IMG/VR virus record: IMGVR_UViG_3300001460_000112
Span: 1-30,841 of that record
From: a virus
Length of the DNA: 30,841 bases
Direction: 5' to 3' (one strand)
In this document: positions 734 through 25,904 of the stretch, in pieces
Position numbering within the stretch: position 1 is the stretch's first letter
Layout of the letters: every line of letters starts with the position of its first letter
The notes under the pieces: model-generated
Told to the model about the DNA's origin: nothing
The model's input: only the letters and a program-made list of their open reading frames with translations
Database searches by the model: none
Made by a program: the position numbers and the translations under genes

Positions 734-1037
734 AGCTTACATTACTTTTAGAAGATCTTCTTCTTCCCATGCCCGCTCTTTTCTTTGCTCTAGTTACTTT
801 TCTTTTTTCACTACTAGACATCTCACTCCAAGGTTTTGGAGAGTCTGAGTTAACTCTTTTTGATGGTCTACAAACTTTTGTATTTTTATTTTTATCAGAT
901 CCACACTCATTACCTTTCTCATCTTTCCAACTTTCTTTAAACCATCTCTTTAAAGAAGCTCCTTTTTTAGTTTTTCTTATTGCAGCTAGCGGAGATCTAG
1001 ATGTAGATATATCCCAAGAATCTTTTTCTACTTCCAT
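732..1037 (-). CDS. Small basic protein, ~101 aa, aquatic-phage/virus hypothetical (possibly DUF5872-like)
   Basis: The frame is open from 1055, but I place the start at 1037. There the ATG overlaps the TAA of the gene before it (TAATG), the usual form of translational coupling; the longer version would add six residues (MQKKEI). The core GASLKRWFKESWKDEKG, followed by C..D..KNT..VCRPSKRV and later PKPWSEMSSSEKRKV, matches a pattern I recall from small proteins of aquatic phages and large algal viruses: W-F-K-E-x-W, two cysteines, 'CRPSKRV' and 'P..W.EMS..EK'. The Pfam name DUF5872 is from memory and unchecked. The C-terminus is a run of Arg/Lys (RAKKRAGMGRRRSSK). Function is unknown; it is the last gene of the structural operon. 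Confidence 0.65.
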   Translation of the reverse strand: MEVEKDSWDISTSRSPLAAIRKTKKGASLKRWFKESWKDEKGNECGSDKNKNTKVCRPSKRVNSDSPKPWSEMSSSEKRKVTRAKKRAGMGRRRSSKSNVS

Positions 1038-1183
1038 TATTTCTTTTTTCTGCATTTAGCTATCATACCACTAGCGTAAGCTGATGGAAATACTTTATGT
1101 GCTTTTTTTGCCTTATAATAACAAGCATCTTTTAATGCTACAGGTGTTTCATATTTATTGAAAGGTGTTTTACATTTTCTCAT
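1037..1183 (-). CDS. Tiny cysteine-containing basic protein, 48 aa ('PSAYASG' type)
   Basis: ATG at 1183-1181, two bases after the stop of the giant gene, and TAA at 1039-1037. The 48 residues start MRKCKTPFNKYETPVALKDA and contain ACYYKAKKAHKVFPSAYASG, then MIAKCRKKK. The pattern D-A-C-Y-x-K...K-V-F-P-S-A-Y-A-S-G-x-I-x-K-C-R-K recurs, to my knowledge, in many aquatic phage and giant-virus proteins of unknown role. The spaced cysteines (C4, C21, C44) and strong basic charge suggest a small nucleic-acid-binding or packaged protein; that part is inference. It shares bases with the start of the next gene (TAATG). Confidence 0.75.
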   Translation of the reverse strand: MRKCKTPFNKYETPVALKDACYYKAKKAHKVFPSAYASGMIAKCRKKK

Positions 1184-1185
1184 GT

Positions 1186-4100
1186 CTATCTTTTTGATTT
1201 TCTTCTTGAACCACCTCTTCTAGTAGTAGGAGATCTTTTATTATTTATAGCTTCTCTTTGCTTTTGTTCTAGCTGCCATTTTGGCCAACCAAGTATCATA
1301 GCTACACTTTGCCACCACTCTGTTTCTTCTTCAAGAGCTCCTTTAACATTATCATACTTTAACATTGCTCTATCTAAAGGTACATTTGTAGCTGCTGATA
1401 TTACCTTTGCACCAGCTAAATAAGCTGGGTTATCTAATGACAAACCTTTGTCATACATTTCTTCTCTTCTTTTCTTACTATCAAACTGCCAAGCTGCAGC
1501 TCTAAGTCTAGATATTTTAGAACTTATTGGAGGTGAAAATTGTAGTAGTTTCCATATAGAATCTACATACTCAGGTCTTGATCTTTTAGATCTTTCGTAT
1601 AAGTCTAATAATAAATTCTTAACAACAGACACAGCAGCTCCTCCTATACCTAAACCTCGTAACATAGAGTCAGACATTCCATTCATTGTTCTATAAGCTT
1701 TTTTAGCATCATCTTCATCGTCATCATCACCATCAAATCCTAAAGCAAATAAACCTTGTTGAAGTGAATTGAATATAACGTTTTGAACAAAGCCATAATA
1801 AGCAACTTTACTAACATTAGACTTCCAATCACCTCTACCTGCTATTAAATCTTGTATAGATCTTTTTTGTATTCTAGCATACTGCATAGGTGTGTTTGCA
1901 AACATAAGTATTAATCTACCATAGTCACTAGCTTGTTGCTGCGATATTTTATCAGGCCTACTAGACTGTTGGTTTTCCTCTGATATTTCTTTCCACTCTA
2001 ATAATGCTTGATCTTTAGCTTGAGCCTCTGTCATACCACTATTTTTCATCAAATCGTTTATTCTATTTCTGTAAAACGTTGCACCACCAGAAGCTATAGC
2101 AAAACTATCAGCAAACTGAGTAGGAGCGTAACCTTTTGCCATTATATATGCTAAAGCACCTTTAGCTTTATTCTTAGCCGTCTTAGCAGCGTCAGCAACT
2201 TCAGACTCAGTTACGTTAATCCTTAAACCGTTACGTCTATCTTTAAGGTAGTCAGAATTCATTAACGTCATAAAGTCAGACCAGTATTGTGGTTGATTAG
2301 CAAAAGCAGCTCCAGCTTTTAAAGGATTGTTAAAACTCCAATTTACAAAGTTTATAGCAGATATAGTTTGAAGTACAGCTGATCTAGTATTTAAGAACAT
2401 TATAGCCGCATTGGATCCGTTTATATAATCAAGTATTCTATTGCTTAACCTACTTCCTGAACTAGTTCTATTTTTGCCAGAGTACATTCTCTTTAACATT
2501 CCCTCTAAAGCTTCTCTATATTTAGAACCATAAAGAGCTTCTAGTTTATTAAGATTAGCTTCATTATATATCTTATCAGCATTTTGTTTCCAGTCTTCTA
2601 AGTACTTAGGTCTTTTAACTTCAGTAAGAATATCTTGTAAGTCTGTGCTTATAGTACCAGCTAGCCAGTCTGATTTTGGTTGAGCCCATCCATCACCTTT
2701 AGTTATATCTAATAATTGATTAGCAAAAGTTATAAGTTGAGCATCTGATTCAATAAGATCATTCATTTCTTTTAAATCAGATTCACTAACACCTGGTATT
2801 TTAAATCCATTCTTAAAATATAAATAAGCTCTAACAGCTTGCTCTTTAGTAAAACCATTAGATGTTTGTTTATTTAAATCTTTAGGTATTTTTAAATCTT
2901 TTTTAAGTTTTCTAAAGTCATTCATGACTTGTAGTCTATCTTTTCTTAAATTCTCATCAGCTACAGCATAAGGATCTAGTAAATGTTTCTTATACCAAGC
3001 CATTTGTAAATTACCTAATGGTCCTTTAGATAAAGTAGAATATATAAGACCAGTAAAATCTTCAGCTGAATATGGTATAAAGAATTTAAAAGGATTTTTA
3101 CCTGTTACTTTAGCTTTTGCAGCGGATATTTCTCCTTGAAACTTAGCTCCTTTCTTAGCAGATATTATACTATCAAACTCTTGATCTAATCCTTTAGAAA
3201 ACTTTAGTTTAGCTTGTTGAACTTTAGACTTAACATCTAACACAGACATAGCGTCTTGAACAGCTTTAACATTTTGTAATGCATCATCTGCAAAATAAAA
3301 ATCATTATAACCTTCAGCAGCTTTATTAACTAACCAATTTGCTTTTGCTTCACCTGTAGAATTACCTAAACCAACTATGTTTTCTTTTTTAAATTCTAAA
3401 CCTTCAGACTTTAAGAATTCAAATATAGCATCTTGAGATAGTGGTGATCTAGCTGTTAAAACAAAAATATCTTCATTACCTCTAGCGTCTTTAATTTTCT
3501 TAGCTAATTCAAACATTGGACCACGAGCTCCATCTCTTACTATATCAAAGTCTGTAAAATCCATTACAGCACCTTGTTCAACAAGATCAGCTCCTTGCTC
3601 TGCAAATTGCTCTGCAGTTAACTCTCCTTGAACACCGTCTTGTGTTGTATAAAAAACTAAACTATTGCTAGTTGCTAAAGTGTCATCAAAATCAAACACT
3701 CTAATCTTTTTAATAGGTTGGTCTAACTTTCTAGCTAATCTTAAAGCTTCGTCTATACCTGCAGCTTTACTTAGTATGTCTTGAGAAGTCATGCCTTCTT
3801 CAACACTTAAAACTCCAGATGTTTTTAAATCATTTATATTTACTCCTTTACTTTTCTTTAAACCTGGAACTACTTTAGTAAATTCAACTAATCTTTGACT
3901 AGCTATAGCCTCTGTCATGCTTTCATTTGAAAATATTTCAAACAATAACTCTTGTTGTTTAGCTATAGCTGATGGAGTTCTTAATTCTACTGGTAATCCT
4001 ACTCCATACTGCTCAGCAACTGATTTACCATTTGGTAACATTAAAACATTTGGATCTATACCAACAAAAGTTTTACCAGTTTCTTTATCTGTTCTTACTT

Positions 4101-7100
4101 GTTTATTAACAAAAGGATTAAAATATCTAATCCAAACAGGTATAGTTCCATTTAATACACCTTCTCTATACTTTGGATCTACGGCTTGTGTATAATTAAA
4201 TCCTTCACCTTTCAGCATAGTATCAAAGACTAAAGGTAAAGCTCCTTGAAAAAAGTTTTCTAAAGCGTTATCTACGTTTAATTCAAAAGTTCCTTGTGCC
4301 ATTCTATTAAACAAATATTTACCTAAGTCACTAGCTGGTTGAGAGTGTTCTTCAACATTTCTTAAACCTAACGTATTTAAAAAATCTATTATAGCACCTT
4401 TTCTCATAAAATGACCTTGACCACCACTGATAGATGATAACAAAGCAGCTACGAAAGGTAAGTTTGTTTTTCTATCCTCAACAACTAACTCATTTAAAGT
4501 TTTTAATATATCTTTTAAACCCTTTCTTTTAGCTTTTTGTTCACTAACAAATAGATCTGTAAAACCTTTTTTAATTTTACTATACGCAGTTCTTTTAACA
4601 GAATTTTCAATATCTACATTTTCTGGAGCAAATGCTTCAACGCCTTCTTCAGCTGCTAAAAACTCAGCATCTTCAATAGCTTTATTTACTTGCGCCGCGT
4701 TAGCAAACATAAAGTTATTTTTTGAATTATTTTTTCCTCCAGGCATTATTTGAAGTTGTATTTCTTTATCATTAAAATTATCAGCTGTGTTAAGAATAGT
4801 TTTACCATTCATTAACTTATATTCTTTTAACGTTTCGTTAGCTTTTAATTTATTTTTAGAAATTTCTTCTATACTTAATTTTATAGGTACTCCATTTTCT
4901 AATACGCTTTGATACATGCCTCCATTAGCAAAAGTACCTTTGTTTTTTGTTATAAAACTTTTAGGAATTTTTCTTATTACTGGTGGTTTACCTTCGCTTC
5001 CTTCAAAAAGTATTGACTTAGCTTTTTGCTTACCTTTTAAATCACCCATTAATATTGGCTTTAAGCCATATTCTTTAACACCCTTATTCCAATTAGTCTC
5101 ATCAGCTTTTTTACCGCTTTCAAATAATTTTCTAGTTCTATCTATGTTTTTCTGTTCTTTAGGTGTTATTGGAATACCTAAACCTGCAGAATACATTAAA
5201 TTGTTTTTACCTTCAACTAATGCTTGAGGTATGTTTCTACCTTTATTTTCTAAAGACTCTCTAACTTCTTGATTAGTTAGCATTCGTTCTGTTTGTGCAA
5301 CTAAAGCTTTCACTCTAGCGCTTGTATTTCTATCAGATAAATTAGGTTGACCTGCTGGTGTTATACCAAACAACTCTTTAAAGTCTGCTGAAGTTATATC
5401 ATTTCTTTTTTCATAAATAGCTAATCCAGCTTTGCTACCTGTCTTAGACATTTTAACTCTATCAGTTTTTCTATAAAACTTATCTAATAAAACTTTTTGA
5501 ACTCCAGTTGATGTACCACTTGGAGTAGCGCCTTCTGGTAACATTGATATTAAAGCATCAGCATTTTTATTTATATACTGTTGTGCGTTTCTTACATCGT
5601 CTTTAGTTAAGTTACCTGGTTTAGGTTTTATACCAAACAACTTTTGAACTTCATTTAAAGCTATATTTTTTAATGATTTAAAATCTAATTGATCTATAGG
5701 TAGATTATTTATTTCTGACTTAACCTTGTCTAAAGATTCTTTAATATCTCCTGTTAATCTAGTTTTTAATTTAATCTTTCTTTTTGGTTGATCTACAACT
5801 TCATTATCAGATTCTTCTGTAGCAGCTAAACCAACCTGCTCAGTAACATCATCTGTAAACTCTTCACCTAAAACTCTTCTTGATGCTTCAATAGCTCTTG
5901 AAGGTAAAAATTTATTTATATAAGCGGCGAGTGGAACACCTGTAGATGGGTCATAAGATTTAATTAAATCAAATATACCACGTTCTCCTGTTTCTATTTC
6001 ATCAGTCAACAACTGTCTATCAAAGTCAGGTGCATCTCTTCTTCTTTCTACTATTTTACTAGTTATTGGTTTGAACTGTTCTATTATGTCAAAAGCTCCA
6101 TCAGAACCTTGTTCTTCATATATTTTCTGTACTTCTTCACTAGCTCCTTTAGAAAGCTTCTGATTCCTTCCCTCTCCAGTAACAGCGTTAGGAAGTTCTT
6201 CTTCTTCCGGATCCATTACAGCTTCAGATTTTACAACTGAATTTTGGAAGCTTTTAACATAGCTATATACATCATTACCATCTTTAAGAGGATATAAAAA
6301 ACTAGTGTTTTTACCAGCGAACTTATTAACCATGCCTTTAAGCATAAACCTAAGGCCGTATATTTTATTAAAATCATACTGACTTAATATTCCTGAAGCT
6401 GTCATATCTCCAAACAGGTTTAAAACCTCCTCAACGTCAACACCATTATTTTTTCTTAAGTCTTTAGCTTGCTCTGGTGTTATTGATCCTTCACTTTCTT
6501 GAAAATCTATTTCTTCATTACTAGAAGTATATTGTTCTTTTCTTTTTACAAAATCATTATACTGCTCTTGAGTTATCTTGCCAGTCTCTAATTTTATTTT
6601 TAATTGACCTTCTGCTTCTTCTATAGCTTGTTGAGCAGCTTCAACTACTACACCATCTTTTACTATTCCAGATTTTCTATTTTGAATATGCATTAATTCA
6701 TGCAATGGTGACACTGCTGAAATTAAAGCTGTATTTTTATTAACACTTTGAGAAAGATTATTTTGAGCATTGTCTGTAAATAAAACTATATCATCACCTA
6801 CAAATGTAGCATTAGCACCTTCTGATCTAGCATTTAGTAATGCTTGTGAATCTTTATCATCAAGACCTTGTTCTTTTAAATCTTCTATAGTTGTTTCTGA
6901 ACTTACACGAAGGGTTTTATTACCATTTAATTCTTGCTGAACACCAACTATATTTCCATAAAAATCATATAGCCCTTGATTATAAGCTGCTAAAGCTGGG
7001 TCAGCAGAGTCTTTATGTTTTTCTTTATTGTTTGTTTTTCTTTTGTTTAATAACTTTTCAGCTTGAACATCTAAAGCTTTGAACTCACTTACTATAGTTT

Positions 7101-9846
7101 GTTTTTGTTTTTTAACAGAATTACTACCAGCATCTCCTCTACCACCAAGTTCATTTAATTGCTTTAGCTTTTGTTTTTTCTGTCTTTGTAAATCAAACAA
7201 ATCAGTCTTTTCTTCCATAGATAAAGCTGTTAACTTCTCATAGTCTTGTATACTATTCATGGCCGCTCTATCCATTATAGCTTTCTTTTCTTTCTTTAAT
7301 ATTTTTCTTTGTTCGTTGTTTATTCCTACAGGATTTTTAAGCTGACTTTCTATATCTACTACTCTTTTTAAATCAGCAGCACTAGCCGCAGCATCTGCTT
7401 TGGTTCTAACTTGATCACCCATCATACTATATAGGTTTTGGCCTATGCTAGGTCCTTGTATAGCTAAAGATGTTATTGCTGTGTTTACTAAAAAATCTGA
7501 GTCAATACCATCTATCATAGATTTATCTTCACCTAGTATGAATATATCAGATATATTATTACCTATTTGAGCAGCTGTCTCTTCTACTAATTCAGTACCT
7601 ACATTTATACTAGCATTTAAACCTTGATACATCATCTTCTTAAATAATCCAGAATTTACTGGAGCTGCTATTTTATTTAAGTTTTTCATATATCCTAAAG
7701 TACCTAACTTTTCTGAATACATATCTATACTTCCAGACAGTAATTGAGATCCTACTTTTTGATACCAAGACAGGTCTTCCACTCTAGACAGATCTTCTTT
7801 TTGTTCTATAAGCTCTTGTCTTTCAAATACTGTTAAAGGTCCTTTTAATTTTTCTTCTATTTTAAGTATCATGTCAGGTGCATCTCTTTGAGCTATGTTT
7901 AATTCAGCTCCTTTACTACCGTAACTAGTTGTAAAAAATATACCTTGAGCTAGCTTACTTGCTTTTTGAGAAGCTACTAGTTGTTGAGCTCTAAGCGTTG
8001 TTGCAAGTGCTTTGTTACCTGCAACTTCTGCAGCTTGTATAGCTTTACTACTAGGTCCAAATAGTTTACCACCAAAACTTGTCATTAAAACAGTAGCTAT
8101 ACTAGGAGCTCCTTGAGCAAGACTATGACCTACAAAACTACTTACATTACCTAATTCTACGTCTTTAAGTTTTAACATTGGCGCTAGTTCAGTTTGTCTC
8201 TGGTTATTCAAACTAGCTACATAATCTAATGAAGCACCTTCTACGTTGTTTAAAAAGCTAGATAATTTATTAGCATTTTCTTCGTCATTAACATTATCTA
8301 TAACCTCTCCTACTACACCTAAGGTTGTCCCTATCGCAGCGTAAGTTCCTCCTAAGAAAAAGCTTTCCATTTCTAATTTAGCTCTATCTAACGCGGAATA
8401 GTTTTTAACACCTAAGTCCATGACTAAAGCTACATCGTTTAATTCTGCTGCATCTTCTTGTAAAGCATCTCTTTCTTTATTCCAAGACTCTACTCTACTT
8501 ACTAACTCTTGTCTTTTGTCATTGAATCCTAATCTTTTAAAATCAGCCTGTACAGCTTTATAACCTTCAAGAGCTGAATTATATTCTTTAATTTTTTCTG
8601 GAGAAGAAGAAGAACTTATACCTTGCTGTTGCATAAACTCTAGTTGTTCTTGAAATTCTTTAGCCTGCTTGTTAAGATCGGCCATTTCTTTATTATCTTT
8701 AAAACTTTTATTAGCTTCTTCTATAGCAGCCATTTCATCTACTATAACTTTAGACCTAGCATTGTTTTTTTGAACTTCTAAAGCCATTAATTCTGGGTTG
8801 TCAGCCAGTCTTCTAACATCTTCTTGAGTTAACCTACCTTTTATTTGATCACTCATTAAAGCTGTTAACTTAATTCTATCTGTATTACTTAAATCTGAAT
8901 TAGCATGAAAGAACTTGTTAACCATGTTTGTCTTAAGCTCACCTAATTTTTTACTTTTTAAATCATCCGAAGCTGAATTTATAATTTCATCAGGAGCTAA
9001 ACCTGTTTCTTTGAACTGTGTAATTGTTCTCCATTTTTCTTCTGGATACCAATCAGGTTTCTTTTCCCATCTACTAGCTACTTCAAATTGCTCATTAGGA
9101 GAAAGCCAGCCAGTGAATTTACCATCAGCATCTTTATTCATCATAGATTGCATTTCTACAGGCATTTTAGCAGCTGGTGTTTTACCGTTTAATGCCTTAG
9201 CAATATCTTCAGAGCTAGAAAATAAATTTTCATTTTCTAAAGCTTTTTCAGACTCAGTAGAAAACATTACGTTTTCATTGTAGAAAGATACAGATTCTTC
9301 TACTAAGCTATTTTTAAATTCATCAGAGTCTACGTTTAAATTATTTAAACTATGTCTTAACTCTTCTGATTTTGGCTTTAGTACTTCTTCATTTCTTTTT
9401 TTAGATTCTTCTACACCTAGTCCAGAATAGTCTAATTTTTCTACATAACTTAATCTATCGTACTTATCTTGCTCGTGAGCTATTGCAGCTGCTTTTACAG
9501 GGCTTTTATCAGCCTCTTCAATTAATTGAGTTGCTTGATTTAATTGAGGGTTTTTATTTTGATCAGATACAACAGCAACATCAAGCTCGCTTTCATACTC
9601 GTCAGGTTCATTTTTTCTAGCTATATTATCAGACATTTGTTTAGCCATTTCAAAATTTATACCTCCAGTTTCTGTACTTTCTACAGGTAATTTATCTATT
9701 GCTATTGAGTTATCTATAGCTTCTTGTTCGGGTATAACTGTAGCCATCATCTCTCTAGCTCTTCTAACAACTTCCTTTATTTTTTCATCAGGCTCGTTGT
9801 TGTTGATCATTTCTTGAACTATACTTCTTAGCTTCTCTTCATTCAT
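1186..9846 (-). CDS. Giant polyvalent virion protein, 2886 aa (metallopeptidase-like, sigma-2-like and HAD regions)
   Basis: A probable internal virion protein injected with the DNA. Regions in order: a hydrophilic N-terminus of about 500 residues; short hydrophobic stretches around 560-640; an HExxH motif, HELMH at 1049-1053, in the context SPLHELMHIQNRK, resembling zinc metallopeptidases; a segment around 1260-1335 with GIFDLIKSYDP..GVPLAAYI and then RAIEASRRVLG, similar to sigma-70 region 2; and a HAD phosphatase module with DFDDT at 2052-2056, T2131 in FVLTARS, K2168 and DD at 2187-2188. The C-terminal region from about 2490 has LQTISAINFVNWSF, an acidic run 2705-2713 and LRGLGIGGAAVS, and matches what I recall of the LPD38-type domain of polyvalent proteins. 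The start ATG lies 7 bases after the 538-aa gene. No RNA polymerase DxDGD motif is visible, unlike the giant cargo proteins of gut crAss-like phages. Being last of the large genes fits a DNA-delivery role. Confidence 0.8.
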   Translation of the reverse strand: MNEEKLRSIVQEMINNNEPDEKIKEVVRRAREMMATVIPEQEAIDNSIAIDKLPVESTETGGINFEMAKQMSDNIARKNEPDEYESELDVAVVSDQNKNPQLNQATQLIEEADKSPVKAAAIAHEQDKYDRLSYVEKLDYSGLGVEESKKRNEEVLKPKSEELRHSLNNLNVDSDEFKNSLVEESVSFYNENVMFSTESEKALENENLFSSSEDIAKALNGKTPAAKMPVEMQSMMNKDADGKFTGWLSPNEQFEVASRWEKKPDWYPEEKWRTITQFKETGLAPDEIINSASDDLKSKKLGELKTNMVNKFFHANSDLSNTDRIKLTALMSDQIKGRLTQEDVRRLADNPELMALEVQKNNARSKVIVDEMAAIEEANKSFKDNKEMADLNKQAKEFQEQLEFMQQQGISSSSSPEKIKEYNSALEGYKAVQADFKRLGFNDKRQELVSRVESWNKERDALQEDAAELNDVALVMDLGVKNYSALDRAKLEMESFFLGGTYAAIGTTLGVVGEVIDNVNDEENANKLSSFLNNVEGASLDYVASLNNQRQTELAPMLKLKDVELGNVSSFVGHSLAQGAPSIATVLMTSFGGKLFGPSSKAIQAAEVAGNKALATTLRAQQLVASQKASKLAQGIFFTTSYGSKGAELNIAQRDAPDMILKIEEKLKGPLTVFERQELIEQKEDLSRVEDLSWYQKVGSQLLSGSIDMYSEKLGTLGYMKNLNKIAAPVNSGLFKKMMYQGLNASINVGTELVEETAAQIGNNISDIFILGEDKSMIDGIDSDFLVNTAITSLAIQGPSIGQNLYSMMGDQVRTKADAAASAADLKRVVDIESQLKNPVGINNEQRKILKKEKKAIMDRAAMNSIQDYEKLTALSMEEKTDLFDLQRQKKQKLKQLNELGGRGDAGSNSVKKQKQTIVSEFKALDVQAEKLLNKRKTNNKEKHKDSADPALAAYNQGLYDFYGNIVGVQQELNGNKTLRVSSETTIEDLKEQGLDDKDSQALLNARSEGANATFVGDDIVLFTDNAQNNLSQSVNKNTALISAVSPLHELMHIQNRKSGIVKDGVVVEAAQQAIEEAEGQLKIKLETGKITQEQYNDFVKRKEQYTSSNEEIDFQESEGSITPEQAKDLRKNNGVDVEEVLNLFGDMTASGILSQYDFNKIYGLRFMLKGMVNKFAGKNTSFLYPLKDGNDVYSYVKSFQNSVVKSEAVMDPEEEELPNAVTGEGRNQKLSKGASEEVQKIYEEQGSDGAFDIIEQFKPITSKIVERRRDAPDFDRQLLTDEIETGERGIFDLIKSYDPSTGVPLAAYINKFLPSRAIEASRRVLGEEFTDDVTEQVGLAATEESDNEVVDQPKRKIKLKTRLTGDIKESLDKVKSEINNLPIDQLDFKSLKNIALNEVQKLFGIKPKPGNLTKDDVRNAQQYINKNADALISMLPEGATPSGTSTGVQKVLLDKFYRKTDRVKMSKTGSKAGLAIYEKRNDITSADFKELFGITPAGQPNLSDRNTSARVKALVAQTERMLTNQEVRESLENKGRNIPQALVEGKNNLMYSAGLGIPITPKEQKNIDRTRKLFESGKKADETNWNKGVKEYGLKPILMGDLKGKQKAKSILFEGSEGKPPVIRKIPKSFITKNKGTFANGGMYQSVLENGVPIKLSIEEISKNKLKANETLKEYKLMNGKTILNTADNFNDKEIQLQIMPGGKNNSKNNFMFANAAQVNKAIEDAEFLAAEEGVEAFAPENVDIENSVKRTAYSKIKKGFTDLFVSEQKAKRKGLKDILKTLNELVVEDRKTNLPFVAALLSSISGGQGHFMRKGAIIDFLNTLGLRNVEEHSQPASDLGKYLFNRMAQGTFELNVDNALENFFQGALPLVFDTMLKGEGFNYTQAVDPKYREGVLNGTIPVWIRYFNPFVNKQVRTDKETGKTFVGIDPNVLMLPNGKSVAEQYGVGLPVELRTPSAIAKQQELLFEIFSNESMTEAIASQRLVEFTKVVPGLKKSKGVNINDLKTSGVLSVEEGMTSQDILSKAAGIDEALRLARKLDQPIKKIRVFDFDDTLATSNSLVFYTTQDGVQGELTAEQFAEQGADLVEQGAVMDFTDFDIVRDGARGPMFELAKKIKDARGNEDIFVLTARSPLSQDAIFEFLKSEGLEFKKENIVGLGNSTGEAKANWLVNKAAEGYNDFYFADDALQNVKAVQDAMSVLDVKSKVQQAKLKFSKGLDQEFDSIISAKKGAKFQGEISAAKAKVTGKNPFKFFIPYSAEDFTGLIYSTLSKGPLGNLQMAWYKKHLLDPYAVADENLRKDRLQVMNDFRKLKKDLKIPKDLNKQTSNGFTKEQAVRAYLYFKNGFKIPGVSESDLKEMNDLIESDAQLITFANQLLDITKGDGWAQPKSDWLAGTISTDLQDILTEVKRPKYLEDWKQNADKIYNEANLNKLEALYGSKYREALEGMLKRMYSGKNRTSSGSRLSNRILDYINGSNAAIMFLNTRSAVLQTISAINFVNWSFNNPLKAGAAFANQPQYWSDFMTLMNSDYLKDRRNGLRINVTESEVADAAKTAKNKAKGALAYIMAKGYAPTQFADSFAIASGGATFYRNRINDLMKNSGMTEAQAKDQALLEWKEISEENQQSSRPDKISQQQASDYGRLILMFANTPMQYARIQKRSIQDLIAGRGDWKSNVSKVAYYGFVQNVIFNSLQQGLFALGFDGDDDDEDDAKKAYRTMNGMSDSMLRGLGIGGAAVSVVKNLLLDLYERSKRSRPEYVDSIWKLLQFSPPISSKISRLRAAAWQFDSKKRREEMYDKGLSLDNPAYLAGAKVISAATNVPLDRAMLKYDNVKGALEEETEWWQSVAMILGWPKWQLEQKQREAINNKRSPTTRRGGSRRKSKR

Positions 9847-9853
9847 GTTATGG

Positions 9854-11470
9854 TCAATTTAAATATTCATCAACTGTTTTTCCACCGCTAGTGGCTTTCC
9901 AATTATCGAATTCCTTCTTTTCAATCTTATAAGCACTATAACCTCCTTTATTCTTGTAAAGACCATTACTTCCTCCAAACGCTAATTCTTGTAAAGCTTG
10001 TTCTAGCTTTTCGTTAGAATCTACCCAATCATAATCTTCTCCACTAATACCAGCAAACTGACTCTGAGTATTAAGATTTTCTCTAAACCTTTTTAAAGCA
10101 TCACCTCTTAGTTGTTGTTTAGGCATTGCCATATCAATCTCTGCCTCAAACTCCATACCTGTTTGTATTTGAGTTGAATTTAGTTTGCTACCGCCTGAGT
10201 CTGTAAGTTTTGTAGAAGCACCATTTACATTTTGAGAATCGGTTGGTGGTGCTTGTATTGTACCTCTAGCAATTAATTTACCTATACCATCAGAATCTAC
10301 ATTGTCATCAAAAGCTTTTTGAGCTATATATTTTTTACCGACTAGGTCTTGATATTCTTTTAGTTTACCTTCTTGATCAGGTGTAAGACCTGAAGGCGAT
10401 TCGTGCCAAGAAGAATTAACCATTTGCTCCATTGTAACCCCAGCTTCAGAAAGTAATGTAGCCTCATCTATACCTGCAGCTGTTAATATACCAGCTATTG
10501 AATTAGTAGCTGTTGGGTCTATTTTACCATTAGCATATCCATCTGGTATCTCATCTTGAAATACAGATAACATTCTTTTATCATCTTTCATTATAGTCTG
10601 AGTCATTGGGCTATTTTCCATTTCAGATATATAATCTCCTCTTTTGTCTTGTTTTAATGTTTGATAAGTATACTCTTCACCTTCTGGTATATTCTCAATA
10701 GTAGCACCTGGATGAAAAGGATCTGGATCACCTTTCTTAAGTTTTATAGTTTCATAGTAACTACTTGGACCATCAGGTGTTCCTACTTTATTTGCTAGTG
10801 TAGATGTTAGTTGTGATATATCAGCTTTATGATTAAATAAATCTTGTTCTTGGTTAGCCATACCTATCATTTCCTTACCATTTAAAAAAGAGTTTTTAGT
10901 TTGATCAAAACCTTCTTCACCTTCGTTTGGTTTAAAGAAATAAATATCACCATTAACTTCTGATAATTGAACATCACCTTTCTCCATAAGTGTTTGTATC
11001 ATTTCTTTATTTTTCATAGAACCAGTACTAGACAAAGTGCCATTTTTAAGAGCTGTAGCGTAGTCATTAGTTTGTTGACTAAGATACTGCACTTGTTGCT
11101 TAAACTGAGGAACTAAACCTTGTATCTTAGCTAATGCTAGATTACCTTCTTGTCTAGATAATTTACCATCTTGCATTTGGTTTTTTATTTGAAAATACTC
11201 ATCAACCTTTCCATTCCAAAAACCATTAATATTAGTATCTAATTTATCATCGCCAGTAGATCCAAATGTGTTAGCCATACTATACATGCTTTGCATTTCA
11301 TTATCTACAATAGCTTGTTGCTTAGCAACTTGTTCTTTTTGTGCTTTAATGTGTGCAGTCATTTCTTTAGCTGTGCCAGCTATGGTTCTAGCTATACCAC
11401 TCTTGCCGCCTGACTGAATCATGCCCTGCATTCTTTTATCTACTATTCTTTTTGGATTATCGTAACTCAT
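9854..11470 (-). CDS. Putative internal virion / DNA-ejection protein, 538 aa
   Basis: The product starts MSYDNPKRIVDKRMQGMIQS and has a long helical, Gln- and Lys-rich N-terminal part (about 25-145). The rest is mixed, with several acidic and Asn/Gly-rich linkers and no signal peptide, membrane span or catalytic motif I can identify. Its position between a small alanine-rich ejection-type protein and the giant polyvalent protein parallels the internal core genes of podoviruses, where three proteins of rising size are packed in the head and ejected before the genome. The assignment rests on position and composition. The start ATG follows an 18-base A/T-rich stretch after the -1 frame tail of the preceding gene. 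Confidence 0.55.
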   Translation of the reverse strand: MSYDNPKRIVDKRMQGMIQSGGKSGIARTIAGTAKEMTAHIKAQKEQVAKQQAIVDNEMQSMYSMANTFGSTGDDKLDTNINGFWNGKVDEYFQIKNQMQDGKLSRQEGNLALAKIQGLVPQFKQQVQYLSQQTNDYATALKNGTLSSTGSMKNKEMIQTLMEKGDVQLSEVNGDIYFFKPNEGEEGFDQTKNSFLNGKEMIGMANQEQDLFNHKADISQLTSTLANKVGTPDGPSSYYETIKLKKGDPDPFHPGATIENIPEGEEYTYQTLKQDKRGDYISEMENSPMTQTIMKDDKRMLSVFQDEIPDGYANGKIDPTATNSIAGILTAAGIDEATLLSEAGVTMEQMVNSSWHESPSGLTPDQEGKLKEYQDLVGKKYIAQKAFDDNVDSDGIGKLIARGTIQAPPTDSQNVNGASTKLTDSGGSKLNSTQIQTGMEFEAEIDMAMPKQQLRGDALKRFRENLNTQSQFAGISGEDYDWVDSNEKLEQALQELAFGGSNGLYKNKGGYSAYKIEKKEFDNWKATSGGKTVDEYLN

Positions 11471-11488
11471 AATTTTTATTTAATATTT

Positions 11489-11638
11489 TTAAGGCCAGCT
11501 ATAAGAACTGGTACTTCCAACACTTGGTCCAAGTCCTGTTACTTGTGGTCCAGCTCCAGGAGTAAGTGCAGTCCCACTAGTTATACCTGGATCAGTAGGC
11601 ATTACTGTTGTAGGAGTATTATTGCCGCTCCCGGCTAC
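11489..11638 (-). CDS. Candidate -1 frameshift extension (49 aa) of the ejection-type protein
   Basis: Directly past the TAG of the 231-aa gene, the -1 frame is open for 49 codons to TAA at 11491-11489. It reads VAGSGNNTPTTVMPTDPGIT, then a Gly/Pro/Thr/Ser-rich tail ending SYSWP. Slipping back one base on C_CCG_GGG (11644-11638) would join it to the upstream protein and give 280 residues. The space up to the next gene is otherwise unexplained. It could instead be the original C-terminus separated by an indel, either real or a homopolymer sequencing error in CCCCGGGACCCC. A third option is a separate 37-aa ORF from an ATG at 11602. Confidence 0.5.
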   Translation of the reverse strand, partial: VAGSGNNTPTTVMPTDPGITSGTALTPGAGPQVTGLGPSVGSTSSYSWP

Positions 11639-11645
11639 CCCGGGA
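11629..11645 (-). promoter_or_regulatory. Perfect hairpin holding a slippery heptamer and stop codon (possible recoding site)
   Basis: On the coding (-) strand the sequence is TCCCGG-GGTAG-CCGGGA: a perfect 6-bp GC stem whose 5-base loop contains the in-frame TAG. The heptamer C_CCG_GGG (11644-11638) has the X_XXY_YYZ form and ends right before the stop. No U tract follows, so it is not an ordinary terminator. The GC-rich stretch stands out sharply from the AT-rich surroundings. In a standard frameshift signal the stem begins 5-9 bases downstream of the slip site; here it overlaps it, which weakens the case. Confidence 0.45.
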
Positions 11646-12330
11646 CCCCAAACGCGCCAGAAGCTATTGAAGCTCCTTGAGCAACAGAATCACCAATACC
11701 AGCTATAGCAGCTGATCTTGCTGCTTGAGCATCTTTTTGGTTTTGTTGTGCATTCTCCATTAAACCAGCAGCTCTATTCATCTTCTTTTCATGAAAATTA
11801 ATAGCATCGCTTTGTTCCATAGCGTTTCCTTTGGCTCTCATCTCGTCTACTCTCTGTGCTCCTTGAGCTTTAGCCATCGCAACTGAAGCGGCTCCTTGAG
11901 CAGCCATTTTTCTATTTTGAGTTTCTTGAGCTTGAATACTAGCAGCTATACCTCTTTTACTTTGTAATGCAGCTTGAGCTAAAGCGGTTGCTCCACCAGC
12001 AGCTTGACCTGTCTCCATCATTACATCTAAGCTATTTGCTAATGCTTGATCTGCTTGTTCGGCTTGCATGTTAAAAGCTTCGGTAGCTACAGTTAAATTA
12101 GCATAAGGATTATTTAAATCTTTAAACTGATTTTGCATATTTTCATAAGGATTTTTAAACTCAGGTCTACTTTTTTCTAAATCTGCTAACATCTCTGCTT
12201 GAGTATTAGCTATTGACTCTTGTCTGTACCCTTCTTTCTTTGCTCGATTAGCATTGATTGCACTGGTTGTAACACCTGCCGCTGCTGCAACTCCAGCTGA
12301 AATCAATATTGCTCCTGCTATAAAACTCAT
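11635..12330 (-). CDS. Alanine-rich internal virion / ejection-type protein, 231 aa (zero frame)
   Basis: The N-terminus (FIAGAILISAGVAAAAGVTT, residues 3-22) is one hydrophobic segment, followed by long Ala/Gln-rich helices. These include GATALAQAALQSKRGIAASI around 113-132, a block I recall from small internal proteins of podoviruses and Bacteroidota phages. By analogy with the small T7-type core protein, it may insert in the host membrane and help form the ejection channel; that is inference. Its ATG overlaps the stop of the cupin gene by four bases (ATGA), so the two are probably translationally coupled. It stops at TAG 11637-11635 in a slippery hairpin, and a -1 shift would add 49 residues. 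Confidence 0.65.
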   Translation of the reverse strand: MSFIAGAILISAGVAAAAGVTTSAINANRAKKEGYRQESIANTQAEMLADLEKSRPEFKNPYENMQNQFKDLNNPYANLTVATEAFNMQAEQADQALANSLDVMMETGQAAGGATALAQAALQSKRGIAASIQAQETQNRKMAAQGAASVAMAKAQGAQRVDEMRAKGNAMEQSDAINFHEKKMNRAAGLMENAQQNQKDAQAARSAAIAGIGDSVAQGASIASGAFGVPG

Positions 12331-19735: not shown

Positions 19736-20968
19736 TTATGATTTAATCCACTTAGATTGACCTCTAAAAACTTGAACTATTTCGTCTAGTTTAAGATTAG
19801 ATAGTCTTATTTTTGCATTTCTTGTTTTGGCATAAGAATCTCTTTTGAAAAAAGCTTTACTACCGCCATCTACATCCATCCTTGTTAAACAAATTCTATT
19901 TAATATTTGAGCGTACATAGCTTCTTCTATCATTTTAGGTATTATAGAATTTAATGTGTAAGACAAACCATCTGATATATAACTTAACTGTATTACTCTA
20001 TTAACTAAACCACTACTAAAACTAAAAGTGCCTGTTCTTTCGTTTATACTAAACCAGCCATTTGTTTGTGATACCTCAGCATCTAAACCATATCTTTGAC
20101 CGTAAGCTTGTTTCCACCAAGCATAATCAAATACACCTGTAGTACTATAAGCATCGTAATCTCCTGTTATATTGTTAGAATTTGCATCAGCCCATCTATC
20201 TTCTATTATAGATTGAGCCGCTTCTAAATTAGTACCGTAGCTACTTTGTGAAGGTATTCCAGTTTTTCCATCTATTATAGGAAGTTCGTAAGGATTGCCA
20301 CTAAGACCATTAAGAGGATATATAGTATGTAAAACACCGTTGTTATCAGCATAAGCTACTCTAGTGTAATTAACATAATCTTTAGGTATAGGAACACTAA
20401 GCCCTGTAGGTACTGTTAATTCTTGAGATTTAAAAGATTTTAAAGTATCATAAGATAATTCTTGAACTGCTCTTCTAGCATGAAACAAAACGGCAGTTCT
20501 CTTTACTCTTGTTAAAATTTGATCTTGTCCAGTGTAAGCAACTATAAAATTATTTATTATATCATTTAAAGTTAAATAGCTATAGCTACCCCAATTATCT
20601 CCTCTAGCAATATCAGTTAATTGTAGAAAAATAAATTGATTATTTGGTATAACTGAACCGTTAATATTTTTTAATTCAATAGTGTTGTTGGCAGTATTAG
20701 TTACTATTATATTTTGACTAGGAATTTGGTTACTAAGACTAGGGATTGTTGTCGAAGTGGCTAGTAGATGTGCAGTAAAATTACCTGTATCTCTAACTTG
20801 AACTCCAAATGCTAAACTATCGTAGTTACTAATTAAAACAGTATTTAAATCAGGAAATGACCATTTTGTTTGATTTCCACCACTTGAATTTTTTAAAGGT
20901 CCATATTGTCCTGCATAGTATTGTGCGTCACTTTCTGTTATTGGAATATTTGCTGCTGTTTTAGTCAT
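19736..20968 (-). CDS. Head-tail connector/ring protein, family B copy 2, extended, 410 aa
   Basis: Residues 131 onward (YLTLNDIINNFIVAYTGQDQ, then RT.VLFHARRAVQELSYDTLKS) align with residues 10-57 of the 200-aa protein at 21705-22307; about 25 of 48 positions are identical by hand. Both also share a C-terminal helix pair (IPKMIEEAMYAQILNRI here, IPKLAEQALYACMIYAIL there). This copy has about 130 extra N-terminal residues and a longer middle (about 230-320) with many Tyr, Trp and Asn. The shared domain resembles the tail-tube or stabilising ring proteins below the portal of crAss-like and related podoviruses. The N-terminal addition could form a collar or decorate the ring; that part is inference. 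It starts 3 bases after its partner gene. Confidence 0.65.
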   Translation of the reverse strand: MTKTAANIPITESDAQYYAGQYGPLKNSSGGNQTKWSFPDLNTVLISNYDSLAFGVQVRDTGNFTAHLLATSTTIPSLSNQIPSQNIIVTNTANNTIELKNINGSVIPNNQFIFLQLTDIARGDNWGSYSYLTLNDIINNFIVAYTGQDQILTRVKRTAVLFHARRAVQELSYDTLKSFKSQELTVPTGLSVPIPKDYVNYTRVAYADNNGVLHTIYPLNGLSGNPYELPIIDGKTGIPSQSSYGTNLEAAQSIIEDRWADANSNNITGDYDAYSTTGVFDYAWWKQAYGQRYGLDAEVSQTNGWFSINERTGTFSFSSGLVNRVIQLSYISDGLSYTLNSIIPKMIEEAMYAQILNRICLTRMDVDGGSKAFFKRDSYAKTRNAKIRLSNLKLDEIVQVFRGQSKWIKS

Positions 20969-20971
20969 ATC

Positions 20972-21694
20972 TTATTGTTTTGAATTATTTTCTTCTTTAG
21001 CAATTAGAGTAGAAGCAGCTTGAGTTATCTCGGCGTCTCTTACTATAACTCCTGAATATTTTAATATTTCTAATATAACTTCAGTCTGCTGGCTATCGCT
21101 TATTTCAAAATCCTTACTAACTCCATTAGATACTGGATCAAATACATATTGACCTACAGCTCCAACTGTATAGTTCCAAACAGGATCTATAGGTTTTCTA
21201 ATATAATTAAAAACAACATCAGTGTTAGCATAAACTCCTGGATCTGGAAAAACTGTTAATTTATTTTGATTATACTTGGCTACAGGAAGATTTTTAGAAG
21301 GTTGTGTAAGATCAGATAGTTTTATCTGATTGTATACTTTATTACTTATTATCTCTATAGGCGGTGAGTTTGTGCCAACAGTCCAAGAAGCAGAACCAAA
21401 TCTATGTAGATCAGTTGGTTGTGTGTATTCATTTGTTGTTGGAGCATTAGAAGCGTTAGCACTTTTTTCAAATATTTGAAACTCTTCCATTGTATGGTCC
21501 ATTCTTGAAGCAAACTCCACGTCTGTTTGTGGCATTCGTATATATTGATTGTAGTCTTGAAAAAACTTTTCAAATATATCTAATTGAACTTGAGTAGCTA
21601 CTTGGTTAAACTCAAAAGGTGTTAAATAGCCACGCTGCTCTTTGTTTAATATACTTAATACCGTAGTATATACTGTGTTTACATTTATAGCCAT
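20972..21694 (-). CDS. Head-tail connector/ring protein, family A copy 2, 240 aa
   Basis: The start MAINVNTVYTTVLSILNKEQ and the following RGYLTPFEFNQVATQ, IF..FF and PQT match the 239-aa protein at 22311-23030; about 35 of the first 64 residues are identical by hand alignment. The C-terminal halves also correspond (FNYIRKPIDPVWNYTVGAVG against LNFLKYPSDVKWGFTIDTEL, followed by DFE...SDQ or ISDSQQ). I read it as a small ring or adaptor of the portal-tail joint. Its two-residue stop-to-start spacing with the 410-aa gene repeats the order of the first pair, so the pair duplicated together. Confidence 0.62.
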   Translation of the reverse strand: MAINVNTVYTTVLSILNKEQRGYLTPFEFNQVATQVQLDIFEKFFQDYNQYIRMPQTDVEFASRMDHTMEEFQIFEKSANASNAPTTNEYTQPTDLHRFGSASWTVGTNSPPIEIISNKVYNQIKLSDLTQPSKNLPVAKYNQNKLTVFPDPGVYANTDVVFNYIRKPIDPVWNYTVGAVGQYVFDPVSNGVSKDFEISDSQQTEVILEILKYSGVIVRDAEITQAASTLIAKEENNSKQ

Positions 21695-21704
21695 ATTGTT
21701 TTTT

Positions 21705-22307
21705 TTAATCGAAGTTAGTAAATACTAGTCTTGACTTGGCTTTTTCTAGTTTGTCAGTTTTTTCTATAAGTAATCTTTGTAATACATCTGGTCTAGTGCT
21801 TTCTCTATTAGCAAGTATAGCGTAAATCATACAAGCATATAAAGCTTGTTCTGCTAATTTAGGTATAGCAGCAGATTCGTCTGTAGTAAGCGCATTTGAC
21901 AAATACGTAACCTTAACAGCACCACCAGAGCCGTATATTATTTGCCTTGGTGAAGTTGTATAGTTTATATAAAATTGACCATTTACTGGTGGAGGAGTAC
22001 TTACTTCTACTAATTCATCGTTTGGATTTGGAGATGTAGCTGCTGTAACACCTATTACAGCTACAAAATCAGCTGGTAAAGTATCTGTGTATGGTAGAGA
22101 TCCTAGTCCAATATTACCAGCATCATATACGAATTGACTTTTTATAGTTTCATACGCAAATTCTTGTAAGCATCTACGAGCGTGAAATATAACTTCTGTT
22201 CTCACTGCATCCGGAATTAACTTTCCCATACCAGTATAAGAAATTAAAAAGTTGTTTATAATATCATTAAGTGATATAAAAGCGTTTGATAAGGTTGTTG
22301 TTGCCAT
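21705..22307 (-). CDS. Head-tail connector/ring protein, family B copy 1, 200 aa
   Basis: Residues 10-57 hold the family core (FISLNDIINNFLISYTGMGK, RTEVIFHARRCLQEFAYETI), and helix IPKLAEQALYACMIYAILAN lies in the C-terminal third. The core also appears, with a large N-terminal addition, in the 410-aa protein at 19736-20968. This compact form is close to the usual size of such ring or stabilisation proteins. It probably forms a ring between the portal and the nozzle. Spacing to its family A partner is 3 bases, and to the second pair 10 bases. Confidence 0.65.
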   Translation of the reverse strand: MATTTLSNAFISLNDIINNFLISYTGMGKLIPDAVRTEVIFHARRCLQEFAYETIKSQFVYDAGNIGLGSLPYTDTLPADFVAVIGVTAATSPNPNDELVEVSTPPPVNGQFYINYTTSPRQIIYGSGGAVKVTYLSNALTTDESAAIPKLAEQALYACMIYAILANRESTRPDVLQRLLIEKTDKLEKAKSRLVFTNFD

Positions 22308-22310
22308 AGT

Positions 22311-23030
22311 TTATATTTTATTAGCATTTTCTAATTGTTGTTCTTTACCAGCTGCAAATTGTAAAGCTAGCTGATCTCTAGTCATGACACCTGCATACCC
22401 TAGTATTTTATCTATTACCATTGGTTGATCTGATTGATGGAGTTCAAAGTCTACAGAGCTTTGTGCATTATAAATATAATTACCTAATTCTGTGTCAATA
22501 GTAAATCCCCATTTAACATCCGATGGATATTTTAAAAAGTTTAATTGAATATCATTTGTTCCACCTGCGATAGTTGATGGATACAGTTGTAAAACATTAT
22601 TTTCATATGTATATACAGGGTAAGTTTTAGTTGGCGTAGTTAATGGAGCTTGATTAGTAGTATATACTTCATGTTTTTGTATTCTTTGAACTTCTCTACC
22701 TGGGCTGACATTACTCTCAAAATAAACAACATCACCAAGTTCTTGTACTGCAACAGTTGGTGTTACAGTTCCAGTAGCAGATGTATTTAATGTTTCTACT
22801 CTTTTAAATATCTGTATTTTTTCGTCTAGTAAAGCATATCTATCAGCGTATGCTAGACTTGTTTGAGGTTGTCTCAATAATTGATTTAGTTCATCAAAAT
22901 ATTCTATGAATATTTCTTGCTGCGCTTGTGTAGCAACTTTGTTGAATTCAGTAGGTGTAAGCACGCCTCTTTTTTCTTGTTGTAATACTACAAGTACAGA
23001 TTTGTATACCTGATTTATGTTTATAGCCAT
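22311..23030 (-). CDS. Head-tail connector/ring protein, family A copy 1, 239 aa
   Basis: Starts MAININQVYKSVLVVLQQEK, followed by RGVLTPTEFNKVATQAQQEI, a helical N-terminal domain shared with the 240-aa protein at 20972-21694. The middle is beta-rich (residues about 85-175) and the C-terminus is helical. The family resembles small adaptor/ring proteins of crAss-like and flavobacterial podoviruses; the exact ring position cannot be told from sequence alone. Its ATG lies only about 15 bases beyond the U tract of the terminator at 23046-23075, so it must be expressed by read-through or from a promoter inside that hairpin region. Confidence 0.62.
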   Translation of the reverse strand: MAININQVYKSVLVVLQQEKRGVLTPTEFNKVATQAQQEIFIEYFDELNQLLRQPQTSLAYADRYALLDEKIQIFKRVETLNTSATGTVTPTVAVQELGDVVYFESNVSPGREVQRIQKHEVYTTNQAPLTTPTKTYPVYTYENNVLQLYPSTIAGGTNDIQLNFLKYPSDVKWGFTIDTELGNYIYNAQSSVDFELHQSDQPMVIDKILGYAGVMTRDQLALQFAAGKEQQLENANKI

Positions 23031-24413: not shown

Positions 24414-25904
24414 TTATGCTCCTTTGAATAACACGAAGTTATTAGCAGCTTGTGTAACTAAACATCTTTCAGATAAGAAATTGACTCTCATTGTATCAAG
24501 ATCAGAAGTATAAGCACCTCCAACTGAACCAGTGATCCAAGCTTTGAATCTTCTATCTTCAGTTTCAGAAGCTCTAAATCTTACGTGTAAGAAAGGTCTT
24601 CTAATGTTTGATCCTAACATTTGATCGTATACTGTAGATGTTCCAGCTGGTATCATAACACCATCAATAGCGTTAGACATACCTCTTGTAGTAGCATCGT
24701 TTAAGTATTTCCAATCAGTCTTATAGAAGTCATAAGAACCTCTTCTAAAACCTGAAAAACCAAAGTTCATAGCCATTTCAGCTTCGTTATCAAATAAACC
24801 GTAAGAAGCAGACTGAGTAGATGCATATCCACCACCAGCTTGTGCACCGATCATATCATCAAAATCAAGAGCAGTAGCTCTAGATAAGAATAACATGTTT
24901 TCTTCAATAGCACCTTGCTTATCTAATTGCTTTAAGATCTCATCGAAATCTCCTAATGCACCAGCTCCAGGAGCAGCAGCACCAGCAAAACCAGAGTATA
25001 CATTACCTCTTGATTCTATAGCAGCAAATAAACCTTCAGTACCTTTGATATTAGAACCATTTGCTCCTGTTGGACCAAATCCTGTTCCGAAAGTACCAGC
25101 GTTGGCATTAAGTTCACCTTCAACCATTGACATCTCTAAGTAATCTTCAAATCTTAATCTTGTTTCAGACTCAGCTTTTAGATACCATAAGTATCCTGAT
25201 GTACCATCTTCAGTAGCAACTTCGATCCAGCCAATTTGTGCTGTATCAGAACCACTTAATTCATAATTATCTTTAAGGATAATTGGTGAATTAGCAAAAG
25301 TAGTTACATTAGGTTCGATAGCTTGCTTCATTCCATCACTTCCTTTAGGAAATTCAGAACCGTAAACAAATAAACTATTAGTACCACTTAAATTAGTTAA
25401 AGCAGCTCCTTCATAAGCGTGACATTCTAATGTATAACCATCAGTAGTACCGTTATCAGTGTTACTTAATACTAAAGCTTTAAGAGTTACTAAACCTGTA
25501 GCATTATCAGAAATTAAAATTGTGTTACCAACTCTAATACCTGAAGTATCTGGGTTATTAGCTCCTTTAGTTATTGTTACTCTAAATTTAGGAAACACTT
25601 TACCACTAGCAGTAACAGCAACTGTATCATAAGCTACGTGTAATCTATTTTGTTCAGTCCAAATTACTTGATCCGAAGTCATAGGCATTTCAGCTCCTAC
25701 CATTCTCAAGAAACCAGACAAAGTCCTATTTCCGTATCTTTCTACCTCTTGCTCATAAAGCTCTGGTAGGTATTGTTGTGCCCATTGTCCACCTGCTACT
25801 GTATTAAAGTCGATATAATTGTCTTGGACAACTACCTGACTTGGCATAGGTGTAATTGAGGCAGGAAACGCACCGTTTCCACCTGGGTTTGTTACAAAAC
25901 TCAT
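24414..25904 (-). CDS. Major capsid protein, 496 aa
   Basis: Forms the icosahedral shell. The protein has the size and location of an HK97-fold capsid protein, downstream of terminase, portal and scaffold. Visible blocks are QWAQQYLPELYEQEVERYGN (about 39-58), an insertion-like stretch with NNPDTSGIRVGNTILISDNA (about 115-134), then IGWIEVATEDGTSGYLWYLK and RLRFEDYLEMSMVEGELNAN in the middle. The last block, with an 'E.R.RFEDYLEM.MVEG' helix, resembles what I recall from capsid proteins of crAss-like and flavobacterial podoviruses. The C-terminal FRASETEDRRFKAWITGSVG is also typical of a conserved capsid end. No N-terminal protease-cleavage region is evident. Codon use is like its neighbours but with fewer rare codons by eye. 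Confidence 0.82.
   Translation of the reverse strand: MSFVTNPGGNGAFPASITPMPSQVVVQDNYIDFNTVAGGQWAQQYLPELYEQEVERYGNRTLSGFLRMVGAEMPMTSDQVIWTEQNRLHVAYDTVAVTASGKVFPKFRVTITKGANNPDTSGIRVGNTILISDNATGLVTLKALVLSNTDNGTTDGYTLECHAYEGAALTNLSGTNSLFVYGSEFPKGSDGMKQAIEPNVTTFANSPIILKDNYELSGSDTAQIGWIEVATEDGTSGYLWYLKAESETRLRFEDYLEMSMVEGELNANAGTFGTGFGPTGANGSNIKGTEGLFAAIESRGNVYSGFAGAAAPGAGALGDFDEILKQLDKQGAIEENMLFLSRATALDFDDMIGAQAGGGYASTQSASYGLFDNEAEMAMNFGFSGFRRGSYDFYKTDWKYLNDATTRGMSNAIDGVMIPAGTSTVYDQMLGSNIRRPFLHVRFRASETEDRRFKAWITGSVGGAYTSDLDTMRVNFLSERCLVTQAANNFVLFKGA

Follow-up and report, generated by a model that had tools for sequence, protein, structure and literature searches.

In the window, by which we mean the 30,841-nucleotide stretch of virus record IMGVR_UViG_3300001460_000112 analysed here, a 231-aa gene ends in a slippery heptamer followed at once by its stop codon, and the −1 frame stays open behind it. 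Does this gene end give one protein or two? Our comparison with related sequences reveals that the stop, a slip motif and a −1 coding tail are conserved together in one clade, and that codon usage of the tail is coding-like. Programmed −1 ribosomal frameshifting, which would give two C-terminal forms of a probable internal or ejection-type virion component, is in our judgement the probable explanation, and we hold it with good confidence on the basis of sequence comparison.

Gene end and −1 tail in the window

The last codons of the 231-aa ORF are GTC CCG GGG TAG on the minus strand. The −1 frame, entered at the slip point, continues as GTA GCC GGG AGC GGC AAT AAT ACT CCT ... AGC TGG CCT TAA. 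The features of this region are:

11635..12330, minus strand: 0-frame gene, short form, 231 aa, predicted mostly helical
11638..11644, minus strand: slippery heptamer C_CCG_GGG, in frame, abutting the stop
11635..11637, minus strand: 0-frame stop TAG, from reading of the sequence
11489..11638, minus strand: −1 frame tail VAGSGNNTP...SYSWP, 49 codons plus TAA, with a predicted long form of 280 aa
9854..11470, minus strand: next gene, 538 aa, whose position matches a structural gene of Cellulophaga phages

Direct reading confirms the coordinates and the description of a 231-aa gene ending in C_CCG_GGG and TAG that a preliminary description of this DNA had given, and the −1 continuation of 49 codons that it had described is exactly of that length. 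The tail, VAGSGNNTPTTVMPTDPGITSGTALTPGAGPQVTGLGPSVGSTSSYSWP, stops with TAA at 11491..11489, and the 538-aa gene starts at 11470, 18 nt beyond the tail stop. The GC peak reported for this AT-rich genome is also found, with 49% GC in the tail vs about 32% in the genome. Both codons of the slip site are very rare in the window (CCG 2.5% of Pro codons, GGG 1.3% of Gly codons) and could slow decoding there. An X_XXY_YYZ heptamer lies in frame at 0.9% of codon pairs. Such a heptamer at the very end of one given gene is unusual and not decisive alone; two other window genes also have one near their end.

With programmed frameshifting, most ribosomes would stop at TAG, yielding the 231-aa protein. 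A smaller share would re-pair one base back on the slippery codons, from C_CCG_GGG to CCC_GGG, helped by the stop codon, the rare codons and a downstream hairpin. The slipped ribosomes would read 49 more codons, and the resulting 280-aa protein would carry a flexible Gly/Pro/Thr-rich tail. We infer both the slippage and its efficiency. In virions the long form would be a minority species, and its tail would contact another component.

Conservation and coding signal of the tail

Protein searches of IMG/VR and GTDB genomes gave about 30 related sequences, and 28 were aligned, the window included. In most relatives the gene has no tail and simply stops, between a few and some tens of bases ahead of the next gene. 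A 0-frame stop followed by a −1 tail is present in the window and in three others, L001 (= L002), L003 (= L004) and L005. L001/L002 and L003/L004 are separate contigs that are identical across this region, giving four independent tail-bearing sequences, which form one clade with support 100/99. The 0-frame stop is TAG in the window, L001 and L005, and TAA in L003. The starts of the tails are related (VAGSGNNTP in the window, VAGSGVDNTP, VKTGSGDNTS and VGAGSGKDNTP in the others) and follow the motif V..GSG.(D/N)NT. The tails of the three relatives, VAGSGVDNTPIIADNEFDKFDSNSPMYGLS, VKTGSGDNTSAGNDYDDLDLGSFDSSNPMYGIG and VGAGSGKDNTPVIAKNEFDNYDMNNPMYGIS, have a common end, PMYG(I/L)(S/G)-stop, while the window tail beyond NNTP (11492-11611, minus strand) is unrelated to them. 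It is also richer in GC (49% vs 36-38%), as if replaced or rewritten. In none of the about 30 related sequences was the tail found in the same frame as the body. The frameshifting into 231- and 280-aa forms proposed in the preliminary description is therefore supported by a stop and a −1 tail in three further independent sequences.

The codon usage of the tails was scored in bits, with the codon usage of the other window genes as reference. The window tail scores +15.8 bits in the −1 frame, −34.7 in the 0 frame and −47.0 in the +1 frame; 35-codon pieces of real genes fall between 0.8 and 25.5 (5-95% range). The −1 frame scores of the four sequences are +15.8, +8.8, +13.5 and +6.4, with the other frames at −21 to −47. 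In all four sequences, then, the codon usage of the tail resembles that of genes in the −1 frame and in no other. Four stops are found in the 0 frame and four in the +1 frame of the window tail region. At random composition, 49 codons in a row are open with a probability of about 0.014, and inside the genes of the window the −1 frame is nowhere open for as long. Openness of the −1 frame is nevertheless weak evidence alone, because in simulations about 60% of trials left a neutral tail open. For the two pairs that have diverged more, the −1 frame gives dN/dS values of 0.35 and 0.44, with few substitutions.

Looser DNA patterns were used for more tail-bearing contigs, and the gene was in none of the at least 149 new loci listed. 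A 13-codon −1 stretch, VGGNNTNDSRPAF, follows a TAG in L009 (5690-5731) and shares GTAG/GCGGCAATAATAC with the window. L009 is without a good slip motif or the common hairpin and belongs to a neighbouring, different clade. Its stretch may be a relic or chance.

Slip motifs, hairpins and alternative readings

L001 has A_AAA_AAG one codon ahead of TAG, L003 has G_GGA_AAG directly ahead of TAA, and L005 has TCA_AAG_TAG with the A_AAG tetramer only. All four sequences thus carry a Z_ZZN or X_XXZ_ZZN slip motif in frame before the 0-frame stop. Among heptamers, C_CCA_AAG, G_GGA_AAG and A_AAA_AAG are the most efficient in E. coli; among tetramers, A_AAG far surpasses the others (PMC4066793). A count over 32,185 codon pairs of these phages gave just 5 copies of these three heptamers, of which 2, in L001 and L003, stand at the end of this gene. 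The swap of one good motif for another at a fixed place is the strongest argument for selection on slippage. The motifs of L001, L003 and L005, with a hairpin 5 nt downstream, are the same as those of IS3-family elements, IS1222 and E. coli dnaX, which also have a downstream structure. In contrast, the C_CCG_GGG of the window is unlisted among the motifs efficient in E. coli, where variants ending in GGC or GGU are called poor (PMC4066793). A 0-frame stop directly after the motif has been reported for some bacterial dnaX genes (PMC5009743).

Three RNA elements overlap the gene end of the window:

11629..11645, minus strand: TCCCGG-GGTAG-CCGGGA, perfect 6-bp stem with 5-nt loop, window only
11624..11635, minus strand: conserved hairpin GCCG-GGAG-CGGC, probable stimulator
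11613..11641, minus strand: outer stem GGGGUA/UACUCC around the conserved hairpin, its 5' arm overlapping the slip site of the window

The preliminary description had placed the stop in the loop of the first hairpin. This hairpin is real in the window and absent from L001, L003 and L005, and was rejected as the stimulator for this reason. A slip motif persists across the clade with changed identity, and the hairpin originally named is confined to the window. Folds of the downstream stretch favour GCCG-GGAG-CGGC enclosed by GGGGUA/UACUCC, and an element RCCG-GRAG-CGGY is common to all four sequences. This conserved hairpin is a probable stimulator. It starts 5 nt past the motif in L001, L003 and L005. 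In the window it starts after 2 nt, compared with a usual spacing of 4-10 nt, so the geometry of the window remains unusual. The hairpin is short and only mildly stable, its folding energies lying mildly below those of shuffled sequences (z −0.6 to −2.2). The outer G-C pair is replaced by A-U in L003, a double-sided change that is not significant on four sequences. The outer stem is GGRGUA/UACUCC in the window and L001, AAGUA/UACUU in L003, and weak in L005. The hairpin codons of the window are rare within their synonymous sets (GCC 4%, GGG 1%, AGC 9%, GGC 8%), and the encoded AGSG does not demand these rare C- or G-ending codons. A pseudoknot between the loop GGAG and a downstream CUCC was rejected, since the pairing breaks in L001. 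The Rfam search gave no match except a chance miRNA hit.

Several other explanations of the open frame have to be weighed. The −1 frame could be the fossil of a once in-frame tail that the ancestor of the clade lost to a frameshift mutation long ago and that is now decaying. That most relatives manage without a tail, that the end of the window tail is fully diverged and that neutral tails often remain open at this divergence would all agree with such a remnant. However, two of the three strongest bacterial slip motifs mark the stop, one in each of two lineages, all four tails retain gene-like codon usage, dN/dS is below 1, and three tails have a common end motif; we regard decay as unlikely. 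A sequencing or assembly indel, with body and tail in one frame in the real genome, is suggested by the GC-rich CCCCGGGACCCC run within an AT-rich genome and by the window being a single metagenome assembly. An indel in one assembly cannot explain the design, because the stop and the −1 tail recur, with different local bases, in three further independent sequences, two of them seen identically in separate contigs (L001/L002, L003/L004), and because no relative has an in-frame tail. Such an error is very improbable.

Short, tightly packed genes are found nearby, for example a 48-aa ORF with its own ATG behind a 2886-aa gene, and by analogy the tail may be a separate small gene with own or coupled initiation. 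No common start exists for it, however. The first starts are at tail codon 13 in the window (ATG), 6 in L001 (GTG) and 23 in L005 (ATG), while the first start of L003 is a GTG three codons ahead of the stop junction; furthermore, the starts of the window and L005 would omit the best conserved residues. We see hardly any chance for a separate gene. Even less credence is given to the GC-rich conserved element as another RNA signal, a processing site or regulator, beside which the open −1 frame is incidental. The conserved hairpin, the rare codons and the one compensatory change would fit such a signal, which leaves unexplained the slip motifs as well as the 30-49 codons past the hairpin, with their conserved residues and codon usage like that of genes, and apart from the chance hit Rfam offers no candidate.

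Three more readings were rejected. Readthrough of TAG is contradicted by a 0-frame codon score of about −21 to −35, by differing lengths and by the TAA of L003; a +1 shift meets many stops in the +1 frame; and transcriptional slippage as a common cause would rely on a six-base run that is found in L001 only.

Protein identity, comparable systems and neighbouring genes

The 231-aa protein has no match in PHROGs, Pfam or PDB, and a tblastn search of the family in INPHARED gave nothing useful. Its structure model, considered with the fold of T7 gp14-type ejection proteins in mind, is all-helical with low confidence (mean pLDDT 60, pTM 0.23). The genes for portal and terminase have matches in known phage families. 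For the portal, the nearest named relatives are phages infecting Flavobacterium, Cellulophaga, Maribacter and Tenacibaculum, and a relative of the 231-aa protein sits in a Flavobacteriaceae MAG; the host therefore probably belongs to that group, and the virus is probably a podovirus of Flavobacteriia.

In phages of Cellulophaga, Flavobacterium and Maribacter, genes in the syntenic position carry the annotation of virion structural proteins. In particular, the gene at the same place bears this annotation in Cellulophaga phi38:1 and phi13:2, Elemovirus and Maribacter phage Panino. These phrog_13764 proteins share the gene neighbourhood of the window protein, standing before a ~500-aa and a giant structural gene, and are similar in size. 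Several have in-frame C-terminal stretches rich in Gly/Ser/Asn/Pro, so a flexible C-terminus seems usual at this place. They differ in that their C-terminus is in frame, without a downstream −1 tail. Neither the window protein nor any A3 member matched the phrog_13764 profile, and hhalign of the window family against phi38:1 gp099 gave a weak similarity (probability 34%, E 4e-4). In crAss001, genes after the muzzle gene encode cargo proteins that are thought to be ejected with the genome (PMC10172136). From gene order, together with the weak remote similarity, we infer that the 231-aa protein is probably an internal or ejection-type virion protein.

A close known parallel is gene 10A/10B of T7 and T3, where a −1 slip near the gene end adds a C-terminal extension and one virion gene gives two products (PMC5009743). 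That gene encodes the major capsid protein, whereas the 231-aa protein lies in the ejection/cargo block; motif and stimulator also differ. The capsid-type gene of the window is elsewhere, at 24414..25904 (phrog_13704; weak Crass_capsid match). In the lambda-type G/GT tail assembly chaperones, too, a −1 frameshift takes place close to where a phage morphogenesis gene ends. The window differs from them in having a podovirus-type block with portal, capsid, ring-like, muzzle-like and giant cargo-like genes, and no pair of major tail protein and tape measure was seen among the neighbours.

The mechanism proposed is ordinary bacterial −1 frameshifting, applied to a gene for which no earlier report was found; our literature search on frameshifting in crAss-like phages, internal virion proteins or ejectosomes found none. 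If true, −1 frameshifting extends to a probable podovirus ejection/cargo protein, and marker peptides become available for two forms of one virion component. More tentatively, a group of marine Flavobacteriia phages may make an ejection-type protein in two forms from a frameshift site at which near relatives use different slip motifs yet keep the product, with C_CCG_GGG as a natural motif directly before a stop and a long form that might set stoichiometry or docking in the ejection apparatus. The clade is a small natural experiment, with the same stop place, the same tail start and four different slip motifs; the effect of motif and spacer is therefore measurable on Bacteroidota ribosomes. For annotation there is a warning, as the gene would be called 231 aa and the tail missed.

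Other genes of the window are worth describing. Paralogous structural gene pairs lie side by side, 20972-21694 / 22311-23030 and 19736-20968 / 21705-22307, with 37% identity over their length and 51% over a 51-aa stretch. They are probably ring or tail-barrel proteins duplicated as a block. Two more features lie beyond the 538-aa gene:

1186-9846, minus strand: giant protein, 2886 aa, with a weak DUF2608 match at residues 2050-2157
1037-1183, minus strand: 48-aa ORF MRKCKTPFNKYETPVALK..., own ATG, directly after the 2886-aa gene

The −1 frame is open for 50 codons behind the 2886-aa gene as well, and this stretch is an ordinary small ORF with its own ATG. The 48-aa ORF has no Pfam match; the next ORF after it, 732-1055, matches DUF5872. 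The DUF2608 stretch of the 2886-aa protein holds FDFDDTL, as in HAD-type phosphatases.
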